The notes under the pieces: model-generated
The model's database searches: none
Seen by the model: only the letters and a program-made list of their open reading frames with translations
What the model was told of the DNA's origin: nothing
Shown: positions 3,767 to 15,367 of the stretch, piece by piece
Numbering within the stretch: the stretch's first letter is position 1
Layout: every line of letters starts with the position of its first letter
NCBI RefSeq assembly: GCF_023897015.1
Contig: NZ_JAMHFY010000012.1
Coordinates: forward strand, 1 to 64,000
From: Desulfosporosinus nitroreducens
Lineage (GTDB): Bacteria; Bacillota; Desulfitobacteriia; Desulfitobacteriales; Desulfitobacteriaceae
Direction: 5' to 3'
Length of the DNA stretch: 64,000 nucleotides
Position numbers and translations under genes: made by a program

Positions 3767-5527
3767 ATGTTTAATAAACGGTTAATCCGGGAGGGGAAGT
3801 CTGTTTGGGGATTTCTGTCGCTCACGGTTGGCCTCAATATAGGGATTGCATTACTCGCAGTCCTTCAGGCTTGGTTTTTCTCCAGCATTGTTGCAAGGGT
3901 CTTCTTGGAGGGGGCGTCTCTTAAAGCAGTCTGGAATTCTCTGATAATGATTCTTGGAATCTTTGGTATAAGAGCAGTTTTTCAATGGTGCAGCGAGATA
4001 TGTGCTTTTGAAGCATCCTCCCGTATCAGGATAAGTTTACGGGAACGGTTGCTGAACCATATCATGTTCTTAGGACCAATGTATGCTCGAGGAGAACGAT
4101 CCGGAGAGTTAATCACAACTGTGGTGGATGGAATAGAAGCACTTGAGGATTATTTTTCCAAATCCCTGCCTCAAATGGTTCTGGCGGCAGGGATACCGCT
4201 CTTAATTTTAATATTTGTCTTTCCCCTGGATTGGAAGTCCGGCTTAATTCTACTTTTGACGGGTCCGCTCATTCCAATCTTTATGATGTTGATTGGAAAA
4301 ATGGCAGAAAAAAAGTCACTTCAGCAGTGGCAAAGCTTAAGTTGGATGAGTGCTCATTTTTTAGATATATTACAGGGTTTAACTACACTTAAAGCTTTTG
4401 GCCGCGCAAAAGATCAGATACATGTAATCGAAAGAGTTAGTGATTCTTTTCGAAAGACAACACTCAATGTCTTGAGAGTAGCTTTCTTATCTGCACTGGT
4501 CTTAGAGTTTCTAGCCACAATTAGCACAGCCCTGGTTGCAGTTACTATAGGATTGAGGTTGGTCAATGGAACCCTCTCTTACTCATCAGGGTTGTTTCTC
4601 TTACTGCTTGCTCCTGAATTTTATATCCCGCTAAGAAACCTCGGCTTAAATTTTCATGCTGGGTTGTCTGGGATAAACGCTGCTGTTCGTATCTTTGAAA
4701 TATTAGATCTCCCTTTAATGAATGAGATCAAACAGCAAACAGTCAATGATGATTTCGTTGCAAAGCCTCAAGATCAGGTGTTACTATCAAATTTTAATAT
4801 TTCTTTTAAACAAGTTGGCTTAACTTATCAAGCCGGAGAGACTCCCACTCTAAAAGGGATCAATTTTTCCATAAATTCAGGAGAAAAGATAGCTCTCGTC
4901 GGTCCAAGCGGAGCAGGTAAAACATCCATTGCTCAACTGCTGCTTCGTTTTATTGCCCCTGCTTCAGGACAAGTTTTCGTCAATGAAACTTTGCTCGATA
5001 CAATTTCTGTGGAAAAATGGCGGGATCAGATCGCTTATGTTCCTCAAAATCCACATTTATTTGCGGGCAGCATAGCGGAAAATATTCGCTTTGGCAGGTC
5101 TTCTGCAACCTTGGAAGAGGTTGTCAGAGCAGCTCAGGAGGCCTCAGCCAATGAATTTATTATGAATCTTCCGGATGGATACCAAACTCACCTGGGAGAA
5201 GGAGGCACTCGCTTAAGCGGGGGACAGGCCCAAAGGATTGCACTTGCCAGGGCATTTTTAAAAGATGCCCCACTTCTTATTTTGGATGAAGCAACTTCAA
5301 ACTTGGACTTAGAGAGTGAGTACTTTGTTCAGGAGGCCTTACAACGCTTATTAAGAGGAAGGACTGCCTTAATCATTGCCCACCGGCTGGATACGGTTTT
5401 CCAAGCAAGTCGCATCCTGGTAATGGATCAAGGGCAGATCATAGAAGAGGGTACCCATGAGGAATTGATGGAAGTGCAGGGGCTTTATTTTCGCATGGTG
5501 AAAGAATATCGAGGTGAATTACTATGA
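3767..5527 (+). CDS. cydD: Thiol reductant ABC exporter subunit CydD
   Basis: Encodes 586 residues: a six-helix ABC transporter domain followed by an ATPase domain. The ATPase has Walker A GPSGAGKT near residue 378, signature RLSGGQAQR near 482 and Walker B LLILDEATSN near 502. CydDC exports cysteine/glutathione and haem-linked reductant needed to assemble cytochrome bd. An in-frame ATG at 3728 exists, but its purine stretch is only three bases away. The ATG at 3767 has AGGAG at a good distance and gives the normal family length. It overlaps cydC by four bases (ATGA). Confidence 0.93.
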   Translation: MFNKRLIREGKSVWGFLSLTVGLNIGIALLAVLQAWFFSSIVARVFLEGASLKAVWNSLIMILGIFGIRAVFQWCSEICAFEASSRIRISLRERLLNHIMFLGPMYARGERSGELITTVVDGIEALEDYFSKSLPQMVLAAGIPLLILIFVFPLDWKSGLILLLTGPLIPIFMMLIGKMAEKKSLQQWQSLSWMSAHFLDILQGLTTLKAFGRAKDQIHVIERVSDSFRKTTLNVLRVAFLSALVLEFLATISTALVAVTIGLRLVNGTLSYSSGLFLLLLAPEFYIPLRNLGLNFHAGLSGINAAVRIFEILDLPLMNEIKQQTVNDDFVAKPQDQVLLSNFNISFKQVGLTYQAGETPTLKGINFSINSGEKIALVGPSGAGKTSIAQLLLRFIAPASGQVFVNETLLDTISVEKWRDQIAYVPQNPHLFAGSIAENIRFGRSSATLEEVVRAAQEASANEFIMNLPDGYQTHLGEGGTRLSGGQAQRIALARAFLKDAPLLILDEATSNLDLESEYFVQEALQRLLRGRTALIIAHRLDTVFQASRILVMDQGQIIEEGTHEELMEVQGLYFRMVKEYRGELL

Positions 5528-8668: not shown

Positions 8669-8892
8669 AGCTGCCTCCTGTTGTTATGTATTGTATTTCG
8701 ATTAATACTTTATCATATCAGGGAGACAAACTGGTGTTTTTCAATAGATATTATCTTGATACAATAAAGGTCCCTTGAAAATTTGGACCAATCTCTAATT
8801 CGTTCGGAGGTATATGTTAACTAAAATATAGCGTCCTGACCATTGACTTTACGCTTTTTCCATGTTAGTTTTATAACAAATAAATTATGTTA

Positions 8893-8992
8893 TGGGCAGG
8901 GGAGCTGGAAAGGCTGGCTGAGATTTAGACCCTAAAAAGTCTAAGACCCTTTTAACCTGATCTGGATAATGCCAGCGTAGGTAAGCAGTTTA
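8893..8992 (+). promoter_or_regulatory. TPP riboswitch (THI element)
   Basis: The aptamer hallmarks appear in order: GGGGAGC near 8899, GGCTGAGAT (8933-8941 region), a short variable stem made by TTAGAC/GTCTAA, GACCCTTTTAACCTGATC, and GGATAATGCCAGCGTAGG ending near 8981. It lies upstream of thiD-cytX-thiM-thiE and is followed by a strong terminator. This predicts transcription termination when thiamine pyrophosphate is bound. A TTGACT hexamer at 8843-8848 could be the -35 box, but no well-spaced -10 box was found. Confidence 0.95.
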
Positions 8993-9008
8993 CTCTTTTG
9001 TGAAAATG

Positions 9009-12734: not shown

Positions 12735-13469
12735 TTGAAAAATAAAACTGCACTGATTACTGGGGGCGGCACCGGAATTGGAAGGGCCATCGCCTTGTTG
12801 TTAGCCAAGTCGGGAGTTAATATAGCTTTGAACTATTCTCGTTCGAAAGAAGATGCCTTAAAGACTTGCCAAGAGATAGAGAACCTTGGAGTTCGCAGTT
12901 TAGCCTATCAAGCAGATGTATCTCGGGATGCTGAGGTTAGGTCCATGGTTAGTCAAGTAGTGGCTGATTTTGGAACTTTAGATATTCTTGTTAACAATGC
13001 TGGAATGACTCATTTCGTAGATCACTCTGATCTTGAGGGCATGAAAGAAGAGTATTGGGATGATATTTTAGGAGTTAATGTTAAGGGTATGTTCTTCTGC
13101 TGTCGGGCAGCAGCCGATGAACTTAAGAAAAGCAAAGGGTGCATTATTAATATTACATCGATAGCAGGATTAACTGGATTAGGCAGTTCTATAGCATATT
13201 CAGCTTCTAAAGCTGCAGCCATAAGTGTTACAAAATCGCTGGCTCGAGTTTTGGCTCCCGAGGTAAGAGTTAATTCTGTAGCCCCAGGAATTGTACAAAC
13301 TCGTTGGGTAGAGGGAAAAGAAGATCACATCGCCCATCTAGCTGCCGGTACACCGCTTGGCCGAATTGCTGGTCCGGAGGATATAGCTGAAGTAGTCTAT
13401 TCTTTAATTGCTCATGCAAGTTTTGTGACTGGACAAACGATCGTTGTCGACGGGGGGAACTTCATTTAA
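12735..13469 (+). CDS. SDR-family oxidoreductase, 3-oxoacyl-ACP reductase (FabG)-like
   Basis: Encodes a 244-residue classical short-chain dehydrogenase. The cofactor loop is GGGTGIG (residues 10-16), followed by NNAG, a serine near 141 and YSASK with Tyr near 155 and Lys near 159, so the catalytic triad is complete. The C-terminal GQTIVVDGGNFI is typical of the family. Translation starts at TTG with GGGAGGAG upstream. It is monocistronic, between its own promoter and a GC-rich hairpin, and far from other fatty-acid genes. FabG function is only one possibility; the true substrate is unknown. Confidence 0.85.
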   Translation: MKNKTALITGGGTGIGRAIALLLAKSGVNIALNYSRSKEDALKTCQEIENLGVRSLAYQADVSRDAEVRSMVSQVVADFGTLDILVNNAGMTHFVDHSDLEGMKEEYWDDILGVNVKGMFFCCRAAADELKKSKGCIINITSIAGLTGLGSSIAYSASKAAAISVTKSLARVLAPEVRVNSVAPGIVQTRWVEGKEDHIAHLAAGTPLGRIAGPEDIAEVVYSLIAHASFVTGQTIVVDGGNFI

Positions 13470-13472
13470 TTT

Positions 13473-13507
13473 CCCCCCCCACTTTTGCAAGTGGTGGGGT
13501 TCTTCGG
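13473..13507 (+). terminator. GC-rich terminator after the SDR gene
   Basis: CCACTT (13479-13484) pairs with AAGTGG (13489-13494), extended by CCCC/GGGG across one mismatch. A short T-containing tail follows. The CCACTT/AAGTGG core recurs in other hairpins of the window. Confidence 0.7.
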
Positions 13508-13537
13508 GATATTTTTTACTTTATCTTAATTTTGCTC

Positions 13538-13565
13538 TTGACAATATAGCAAATTTAGATATAAT
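13538..13565 (+). promoter_or_regulatory. Consensus sigma-A promoter of the large non-coding transcript
   Basis: TTGACA (13538-13543) and TATAAT (13560-13565) are both perfect consensus hexamers with a 16-base spacer. Transcription should start near 13572. No convincing ribosome site or ORF follows for over 700 bases. Confidence 0.75.
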
Positions 13566-13571
13566 TTAATC

Positions 13572-14187
13572 ATAAGAAGCAATAAAAAATTCAGTTTCAT
13601 CAAAAGTTGTTGGTCGCGTGCTAGGCAAAGTTTTCGATTCGTCGAAAGTAAGCATTGCAATCAGTTCAAAGTTAGTAATGCTGAATTTCGAGAATTGGAA
13701 CCACCTAGAGAGGTGGTTTTTGAGTTTTCTATTAAAGAAAGATTTCCCGCAAAGTTCCTCCCAGTCAGTCGGTCAGAGTAAAATTGTTTTCGGTGCTCTA
13801 TCAAACGATCTAGGAAACTGTGAAAGAATTTGGGTGATTTGAAAGCTTAAGTTTGTCTCGGGTGAATAGGTGTTAGAAGATTGACCGCAGTTAGATCAAA
13901 GTTAACAGATAGTGGAAGATTTGTCCAGATTAGTTTCCCCTACGTTACCAAAAAATGTTTATTGGTTGGTTTGCTTTCAAGTAGACAATGTCTCTACCCC
14001 TTACTAGATTAAATTCCGTAAGAATTTTGTTTGCTAGTTGTAAAGTGTGTTGGTGTAAGCCTATAGTCTGGTTAATAAATATTGGTAAAGTTTAGTTGAA
14101 GATTAATCTTGAGCCGTGTATCCATTAGTTGTGGAGGAACTTTGCGGGATCATTTAGATTTGGGCCACTCATTTGAGTGGCCTTTTT
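13572..14187 (+). ncRNA. Candidate large structured non-coding RNA, about 615 nt
   Basis: This stretch is bounded by a consensus promoter and a strong terminator and contains no credible coding sequence. Bases 13745-13761 are the exact reverse complement of 14133-14149, a 17-bp long-range pairing across about 370 bases. Local hairpins include TTTCGA/TCGAAA around a TTCG loop (13632-13647), AGCATT/AATGCT (13651-13682), CCACCT/AGGTGG (13701-13716) and the palindrome AAGATTAATCTT (14099-14110). The length and the anaerobic Firmicute host would suit OLE RNA (about 610 nt), but I cannot confirm that family from memory. No OapA-like gene is adjacent. Confidence 0.65.
14163..14187 (+). terminator. 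Strong terminator of the non-coding transcript
   Basis: GGCCACTC (14163-14170) pairs perfectly with GAGTGGCC (14175-14182) around an ATTT loop and is followed by TTTTT. Confidence 0.9.
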
Positions 14188-14353
14188 ATTGTGAAATTTC
14201 AACAATTAGAAGTGAACTATCTATGACCCTGCGTGGTTATAGTAAGGGTTTAGAACACCCTTTATACTGTGGGGGTAACGTGGTATTATGTAAGATAATA
14301 GAATAAAAAGTAATTATTTTAGAGATGATGAAGCAGGAGGCAAAAAACTCATA

Positions 14354-15367
14354 ATGAAATTAGAGAAATTCTTTGAAAGCAATTTGTTTAAGAAGGGCCT
14401 ATCGTTACTGCTGTTATTAGGAATAATAATAGGCATTAAACCTATGATGAACTTACTGCTACTAACCTTTATGTTTTCTTTTATACTGTACGGTATCCAA
14501 AATTACATTTTCTTAAAGATTGTTAAATTAATCCCTATAAACAGGACCGGTGTCACGGTCGTAGTTTTTTCCTTAGTAGCTTCATCAATTGTCTTTATAA
14601 TCTATAGATATATTCCAATTTTAACAAAGCAGTTAATGTTTATAGGTATACAGCTTAGTAACTTTGATATCAATAATTATGAGGATGCTATTAATCCACA
14701 AATAAGGGAAGCTATCAGCACAAGTATTCAATCTTATGTAGTTGAAGGCGGGACATATTTAATTCATTCGGTAACGAATATTTGGGAATTCAGCTTAAAT
14801 ATTTTTATTGCCTTGATCCTAAGTTTATTTCTAATCTTGGAAAAGGATAAGACCATAAGATTCTTGGATAGGTTTGAGCACAGTAAAGTCAGCTTTGTAT
14901 ATAAGTATTATAAAAAATTAGGTAAGAATTTTGTGAATTCCTTTGCTAAGGTTATGGAAACACAAATCGTAATATCCTTTATAAATTCTATTTTATCAGC
15001 GGTCGCTTTGAGTATCATGGGATTTCATCAAGTAATAGGATTAGGATTTATGATCTTCATTCTCGGGCTAATACCCGTTGCCGGTGTTTTGATCTCATTA
15101 ATTCCATTGTCAATCATTGCTTTTAAGCTGGGTGGAATAATTAAGATACTTTATGTGCTGGGGATGATTGTTGTATTGCATGGTATCGAAGCTTATTTTC
15201 TAAATCCCAAACTTATGTCCATCAAAACCAAACTTCCTGTTTTCTTTACTTTCGTAGTATTATTACTAGCTGAGCATTTTCTGGGGGTATGGGGACTTTT
15301 GTTTGGAATACCACTTTTTCTATTTATGCTGGATATACTTGATGTAGGAGAATCAGATTATAGTTAA
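14354..15367 (+). CDS. AI-2E family transporter (PerM/YdiK-like permease)
   Basis: Encodes a 337-residue protein with about eight hydrophobic segments. The family layout is two N-terminal helices, a polar middle region (about 80-150) and a conserved C-terminal membrane block with GFHQVIGLGFMIFILGLIP and HFLGVWGLLFGIPLF. Members have been linked to autoinducer-2 export, Na+/H+ antiport and unknown efflux, so the substrate is open. An AGGAGG lies 13 bases before the ATG, slightly long spacing. It is isolated between two terminators and downstream of the non-coding transcript. Confidence 0.85.
   Translation: MKLEKFFESNLFKKGLSLLLLLGIIIGIKPMMNLLLLTFMFSFILYGIQNYIFLKIVKLIPINRTGVTVVVFSLVASSIVFIIYRYIPILTKQLMFIGIQLSNFDINNYEDAINPQIREAISTSIQSYVVEGGTYLIHSVTNIWEFSLNIFIALILSLFLILEKDKTIRFLDRFEHSKVSFVYKYYKKLGKNFVNSFAKVMETQIVISFINSILSAVALSIMGFHQVIGLGFMIFILGLIPVAGVLISLIPLSIIAFKLGGIIKILYVLGMIVVLHGIEAYFLNPKLMSIKTKLPVFFTFVVLLLAEHFLGVWGLLFGIPLFLFMLDILDVGESDYS

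Follow-up and report, generated by a model that had tools for sequence, protein, structure and literature searches.

A large RNA conserved in Desulfosporosinus and related genera that very probably represents a new noncoding RNA family

Between an SDR gene (PF13561) and an AI-2E transporter gene (PF01594) of Desulfosporosinus nitroreducens lies a segment that a first-pass annotation, made from the letters alone, had read as a large noncoding transcript of about 615 nt, offering two identities for it, a divergent OLE RNA or a new large RNA class. The locus raises the questions of whether this RNA is already known under another name and what it may do. We analysed it within a window of 64,000 nt (positions 1 to 64,000 of contig NZ_JAMHFY010000012.1, assembly GCF_023897015.1), on whose forward (+) strand all features of the RNA given below lie, and compared it with related loci. 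We conclude that the RNA very probably constitutes a new noncoding RNA family. It is the family that is new; bacterial RNAs that are both large and structured were known before. The family itself is well supported, and its function we infer from sequence comparison.

The predicted transcript and its helices

Transcription is predicted to start behind a sigma-A promoter at 13538-13565, whose hexamers TTGACA (13538-13543) and TATAAT (13560-13565), separated by a 16-nt spacer, match the consensus at 12 of 12 positions, exactly as first annotated. Promoter-like sites as such occur in 13000-14600 at chance level (five against 4.3 expected); this one recurs at the same place in the copies of the genus, with the 16-nt spacer kept in 46 of 46 promoters examined and the hexamers nearly so (TTGACA in 45 and TTGACT in one; TATAAT in 45 and TATACT in one). 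The strong terminator of the annotation is likewise present as an intrinsic terminator at 14162-14187, a hairpin (14162-14183) followed by a T run; the scan of 13000-14600 returned four terminator-like sites against 1.2 expected. Delimited by these signals, the predicted noncoding transcript (13572-14187) measures about 616 nt, in keeping with the size first proposed, and related copies range from about 300 to over 1,100 nt. Its predicted fold has an energy of -169.8 kcal/mol (z = -6.1 against 20 dinucleotide shuffles), and a transcript of this kind would probably be abundant.

That the RNA is instead the messenger of a small protein is most improbable. Frames of 74, 43 and 65 aa can be drawn in it, the longest listed one (74 aa) starting with GTG, but in 33 of the 38 aligned copies the 74-aa frame, to which the conservation check applied, is cut short by a stop that comes after 3 to 37 codons; the other 5 keep it open as far as their aligned piece reaches, and the frame is thus not conserved. 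Furthermore, the AGTT-unit arrays of related copies carry recurrent TAG stops, and many indels are not multiples of three. The earlier view that the segment holds no credible frame can thus be kept. A promoter and a terminator of its own, a covarying structure and the lack of a conserved frame are the marks of an autonomous bacterial noncoding RNA, and this locus has them.

The two ends of the RNA are joined by a closing helix, whose 5' arm (13745-13761) and 3' arm (14133-14149) are complementary at all 17 positions, as annotated. About 1e-5 exact 17-nt inverted pairs would be expected by chance in 653 nt, and none of 300 mononucleotide shuffles reached this length. Over 67 members with 29 distinct arm pairs, 97.6% of cells are paired, a percentage inflated because members were picked by arm similarity and, for nine added members, the partner was taken as the most complementary 16-mer. 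Of the 16 pairs, 7 have changed on both sides, where shuffles give 3.1 (1 of 500 reaching this value), with 19 double-change cells against 3.9 (0 of 500); examples are U-A to C-G, G-C to A-U and A-U to G-C. Without the nine added members, 4 of 17 pairs are double-changed against 1.7 (9 of 500 reaching this), with 10 double-change cells against 2.3 (0 of 500), and sliding the arms by 1 to 3 positions in this smaller set lowers the paired cells to 58 to 82%. These arm counts leave out L034, L110, L112 and L114, which have a one-base indel in an arm. In L034 a matching one-base deletion is found in both arms, which accounts for the low identity (71-76% in the alignment) of its arms to the window copy. 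Arm sequences can also be kept closely: in L051 and L037, whose neighbouring genes are 76-80% identical to those of the window, identity reaches 100% for the arms and 91-100% for the C strand of the second stem.

A second conserved stem, missed by the first-pass annotation, joins a B strand (13905-13936; TAGTGGA, internal loop, TCCAGATTAGT) with a C strand (14099-14132; AAGATTAATCT, internal loop, TCCATTAGTT). Of its 20 pairs, 11 never vary in the 3' domain alignment (A2, 34 of the 45 Desulfosporosinus 3' domains), and its internal loop is nearly invariant. Taken together, the second stem and the terminator are 97.3% paired and hold seven double-change pairs, where shuffles give 2.7 and none of 500 reaches seven; two of them lie among the 20 pairs of the stem and five among the nine of the terminator, the latter each seen in at least one of 34 copies. 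Because the stem directly adjoins the 3' arm, the whole stretch from the 5' arm to the B strand becomes, on this fold, a one-sided loop. Two short forms, L043 (G011:C38) and L107 (G004:C21), consist of a leader and the arms around a 28-nt repeat array, without the B/C stem. By eye, a box close to GUAGGUGACU precedes the 3' arm in L109, L110, L112, L114, L115, L117 and L174-L183, that is, in copies from the second family of the order and from G034 and G029; it was not seen in the Desulfosporosinus copies.

Distribution and relation to known RNAs

A nucleotide search of 100 genomes gave matches in 29 of 29 Desulfosporosinus genomes and short matches in six of the other 71; of these six, five come from the family to which Desulfosporosinus belongs and one, G085, from outside the order. 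When the arm pattern, the partner-arm test, the leader model R1 (see below) and a check of weak matches were combined, both arms were found in 54 of 73 genomes of the order, namely all 29 from the genus, 11 of 16 from the other genera of its family and 14 of 25 from the second family, with 0 of 3 from the third. Ten of the weak R1 matches (E 2e-5 to 0.02) have a complementary arm 221 to 292 nt downstream, with 14 to 16 of 16 positions paired, a terminator-like end by eye and, in nine of the nine scanned, a promoter-like site; they raise the number of members with both arms from 62 to 72. The first-pass annotation had staked its reading on conservation in related genomes and on covariation in the 13745/14133 helix, and both were found, the former in 29 of 29 Desulfosporosinus genomes and the latter at the 7 of 16 double-changed pairs given above. 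A large RNA kept by all 29 Desulfosporosinus genomes searched offers a concrete target for study in sulfate reducers and their relatives.

Copies are often multiple. The window genome has two, one at the window locus (contig C3) and one at C5:46171-46874; among the 29 Desulfosporosinus genomes there are 47 copies with both arms, 14 genomes have two or three, and some copies stand in tandem, for example in G002 and G023. L179, a near-copy of L178, is left out of later counts.

Searches with R1 and with the second leader model, R2, covered the 73 genomes of the order, and the search outside it used the arm pattern, which is blind to divergent arms; with this pattern no two-arm copy was found outside the order. 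An exact arm match was present in 8 of 398 genomes drawn from the phylum, five of them in the order and three outside it without a partner arm, and none of 9 genomes from the rest of the class fitted the arm pattern when one mismatch was allowed, while a reversed control pattern matched in three. Several candidate members were rejected: L130, L131, L134, L137 and L139 have no partner arm, and a 22-of-24 match in G026 (L025) lies inside an apparent glycosidase gene by eye. An origin as a plasmid or phage element was likewise rejected, no match being found in 72,556 plasmid and 50,697 phage records, and a single viral-contig match (L150) has no partner arm and reads by eye as coding sequence.

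Searches with the OLE (RF01071), ROOL, GOLLD and other models of Rfam 15, the check that the first-pass annotation had proposed, gave no match to this RNA at gathering level in the whole window or in 20 related loci, and no OLE, ROOL or GOLLD match in 13300-14400 at E up to 10. The best sub-threshold matches (SorY, JA04 and MicA) are due mainly to the terminator hairpin and fall far short of their gathering scores. The literature search, judged by titles and abstract openings, found no description of this RNA, and the available text of two large discovery papers (PMC8632094 and PMC11109978) has 0 occurrences of Desulfosporosinus or Desulfitobacterium.

The chance that this is a divergent OLE RNA is practically nil. 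Its size and host group would suit, the predicted 616 nt agreeing with the roughly 600 nt of OLE, itself a structured RNA of Gram-positive anaerobes whose function is poorly known. However, the OLE model, which finds OLE in 41 of the 73 genomes of the order (E 4e-153 to 8e-52) and in 0 of 14 control genomes, has no match anywhere in the window genome, and in the 34 genomes that hold both RNAs they always lie at different places when their coordinates are compared. The architecture differs as well, the new RNA being multicopy and provided with a hypervariable array, and, as had been noted from the start, no OapA-like gene stands beside it, the two flanking genes encoding an SDR protein and an AI-2E transporter. 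The search of the order thus refutes the OLE half of the original proposal, and the other half, a new large RNA class, is the one borne out by conservation in 29 of 29 Desulfosporosinus genomes, by covariation in the closing helix and by the lack of any Rfam 15 match. As a side observation, OLE itself was found in 11 of 29 Desulfosporosinus genomes and in 14 of 15 examined genomes of the family's other genera, some of these genomes being incomplete.

Among other known RNAs, ROOL and GOLLD resemble the new RNA as large, autonomous, structured bacterial RNAs, but the new RNA matches neither their Rfam models nor any phage record and has one dominant closing helix. The raiA motif (ModT RNA) is a conserved structured RNA of Bacillota, which is a likeness, and is described as present in more than 2,500 species; the new RNA has no Rfam match to it and was found only in one order. 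According to PMC12286853, ROOL can match 16S rRNA in abundance in one strain.

The hypervariable interior and the possible role of the RNA

As judged by comparison among copies, the family is characterized by its own consensus promoter, its own terminator and a conserved closing helix of 16-17 bp. In contrast to these parts, the C-poor interior is hypervariable. In the window it occupies 13762-13904 and starts with AGTCAGTCGGTCAG (13763-13776). From the 5' arm to the B box, or to the 3' arm where there is no B box, it spans 60 to 770 nt over 62 members, with a median C of 0.15 and G of 0.23 and with G exceeding C in 57 of the 62. Many Desulfosporosinus copies carry tandem arrays there, built of AGUUAGU-like units (mostly AGUUAGUUAGG or AGUCAGU) and reaching 36 units of 13 nt (L066), 21 of 17 nt (L041), 18 of 32 nt (L042), 15 of 31 nt (L037) and 9 of 28 nt (L107). 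The window copy has no array, though it occupies the same SDR/AI-2E place as the array-bearing L037, L041 and L042. All four share their flanking clusters, with SDR upstream, AI-2E downstream and further upstream genes to the contig ends, which indicates that the array grows and shrinks at one locus. Compared with the D. lacus interior, that of the window has five gap positions and is 99% identical at the other 144. Three traits of the RNA are unusual, namely a hypervariable loop of repeats that is one-sided and enclosed by a closing helix which covaries and nonetheless keeps most of its sequence, a repeat number that changes between strains at one locus, and a leader seen, within the order, only on this RNA.

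Flanking genes vary among the copies and include those for SDR, AI-2E transporter, M42 and M20 peptidases, lactate racemase, LUD-domain and GDSL proteins; the commonest clusters in the genus have SDR, thiE-like and thiM-like genes upstream (the two thi assignments being by eye) and, downstream, M42 peptidases or the AI-2E transporter. This variation favours an RNA acting in trans over a leader of the downstream gene, and action in trans is what we infer. A thiamine-operon neighbourhood is common but not general. In the window, a TPP riboswitch (8888-9000), the sole Rfam match there, precedes an apparent thiamine operon (thiD, a cytosine-permease-like gene, thiM and thiE, by eye) that ends just before the SDR gene and the large RNA. 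In four loci of other genera (L079, L102, L103 and L104) the RNA and a gene that matches no Pfam family are oriented divergently, and the same gene lies nearby in three more; it encodes a conserved protein of about 250 aa starting MRAQFTLTPSESKRLIAKG (L103:3181-3930 and relatives), and the L103:3181-3930 product was assigned to no family in the Pfam scan.

The reading we place first, although we hold it tentatively, is that of an autonomous structured RNA that would act in trans, serving as a scaffold or decoy for a partner through its loop array. The closing helix and the second stem would form a stable body, probably bound by protein, the large one-sided loop would present many equal binding sites to the partner, and the leader may tune the amount of full-length RNA through premature termination. 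RNAs of the CsrB/RsmZ type, which sequester proteins, also carry a repeated short motif whose unit number varies; unlike them, the new RNA shows no enrichment of GGA and holds its array in one loop under a conserved helix. Neither known decoy motif was enriched in 50 interiors without arrays, the z values being -2.1 for GGA (CsrA) and -0.1 for [GU]AGNN[GU]AG (TRAP; [GU]AG triplets at 5-nt spacing), and a CsrA-sequestering and a TRAP-binding RNA were rejected on these grounds. The array motif itself is not enriched in other genera either (z 0.2 to 1.4 in 12 interiors, leaving out the TRF-repetitive L075, L078 and L079), so a partner that recognises it may be absent from part of the family. Further points against the scaffold or decoy reading are that the array could be a neutral spacer, expanded by slippage and needing only to stay unpaired, that the second stem by itself has only two double-change pairs, and that leader covariation is not above shuffles in the genus and is weak in the second family.

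The main rival, possible though we consider it unlikely, holds that the array is indeed a passive spacer and that function resides in the closing helix and in the second stem with its internal loop; the RNA would then be a structural RNA or ribonucleoprotein of the OLE/raiA sort, whose loop drifts freely as long as it is unpaired. The range of 60 to 770 nt, the different repeat units at the same locus, the lack of motif enrichment outside the genus and the near invariance of the stem and its internal loop all accord with this. However, AGT[CT]AG is enriched in Desulfosporosinus interiors without arrays (z 4.9 with the first 30 nt removed), although decayed arrays could cause this as well. With the first 30 nt likewise removed, z is 4.4 overall and 0.2 in other genera, and over whole interiors it is 9.7, a value partly owed to the conserved interior start; the motif counts leave out 12 loci with TRF repeats. 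In addition, a passive spacer does not explain the short forms L043 and L107, in which the array is present but no B box is seen (L107 by eye).

The leader as a possible switch

Upstream of the 5' arm lies a leader domain (13572-13741), represented by model R1 and by alignment A1, which holds 38 of the 46 Desulfosporosinus leaders. A helix at 13587-13593/13682-13688 surrounds a second one at 13652-13656/13677-13681 (13587-13688 in all), and 95.5% of cells are paired over the leader structure. An A box, TTGGTCGCGTGCTAGG (13610-13625), contains TGCTAGG, which is unchanged throughout the 38 aligned copies. The TTCG-loop hairpin that the first-pass annotation had pointed out is present at 13632-13647, with 98.2% of cells paired in the 38 copies and no double change. 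That annotation missed an internal terminator-like hairpin at 13698-13719, followed by a U-rich tract, which precedes the arm in 38 of 38 leaders of the genus. Its mean energy is -11.4 kcal/mol, and the next 8 nt hold 5.2 T against 2.5 expected from composition, with at least five T in 33 of 38; 17 three-prime terminators measured likewise gave -13.6 kcal/mol and 5.9 T. Sequence comparison places a leader ending in such a hairpin in most genera, and several genera have the promoter directly before the arm instead.

Related leaders were found with R1 and R2 in other genera and in the second family; the model of the latter's leader, R2, also matches the Desulfosporosinus leaders (best E 1e-6). 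When leaders of this family and of G034 were folded up to AAAGCC, at least 7 of the 12 nt around this motif paired upstream in 12 of 13 (for example with GGTTTTAATCC), and AAAGCC is also part of the hairpin; in folding predictions of the full leader either fold may win. Alignment and hairpin counts for the second family leave out L110 and L183, and alignment A3 also leaves out L112.

These features may mean that the leader is a switch, either a riboswitch or a protein-controlled attenuator, that decides whether the remaining RNA is made. We regard this as possible but doubtful, and as compatible, as an add-on, with either the scaffold or decoy reading or the passive loop. Besides the hairpin with its T tract and the predicted upstream pairing of the AAAGCC region, it is favoured by the complementarity of the A-box CTAGG to the loop side of the hairpin at 13698-13719 (in each of the 38 leaders, 4 to 6 of the 6 positions pair, with matching changes by eye in L101, L174 and L079), and by the genera in which the RNA starts right before the arm. 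Against it, covariation in the leader is not above shuffles in the 38 aligned copies of the genus, that of the competing helix in the second family is weak and not significant, and the hairpin of that family shows none. The U tract is also weaker there (at least five T in 8 of 13), and the hairpin is not always favoured in the full-leader fold. Finally, R2 has 41 matches across the order's 73 genomes, every one of them on a copy of the large RNA and none before a protein gene, which would be unusual for a metabolite riboswitch. The single R1 match off the known places (G026:C34, E 0.058) was rejected as a further member, being an ordinary terminator-like hairpin that arose by chance, without arm or partner, and several weak minus-strand R1 matches are the 3' arm read backwards. 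The leader is thus a dedicated switch or else no more than a portion of the RNA. Rfam 15 found no known riboswitch aptamer in the leader of the window or of 20 related loci, the only aptamers being TPP ones outside this RNA.

A more elaborate combination, which we consider improbable as a whole, would make the leader a sensor of a new type that responds to a signal by releasing its own terminator. The cell would then make large amounts of an RNA in which the closing helix keeps a fast-evolving array open; the array would soak up a regulator, and the repeat number would set the dose. Rli55/EutX is a riboswitch-gated decoy RNA and would be a precedent for a switchable leader on a trans-acting RNA, from which the new RNA differs in that its leader has no known riboswitch aptamer.

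Alternatively, the RNA could be a precursor whose closing helix is cut by RNase III, as in rRNA processing stalks, so that the inner or the outer RNA is the product. A helix of 16-17 bp joining distant ends would suit this, but we think it distinctly improbable, for RNase III does not require near-invariant sequence for cutting and the arms keep such sequence within the genus, and the inner part is among the least conserved. In one further copy, L051 (G003, 4026-4320), an insertion of about 80 nt lies inside the leader, and the arms and the 3' part are intact.
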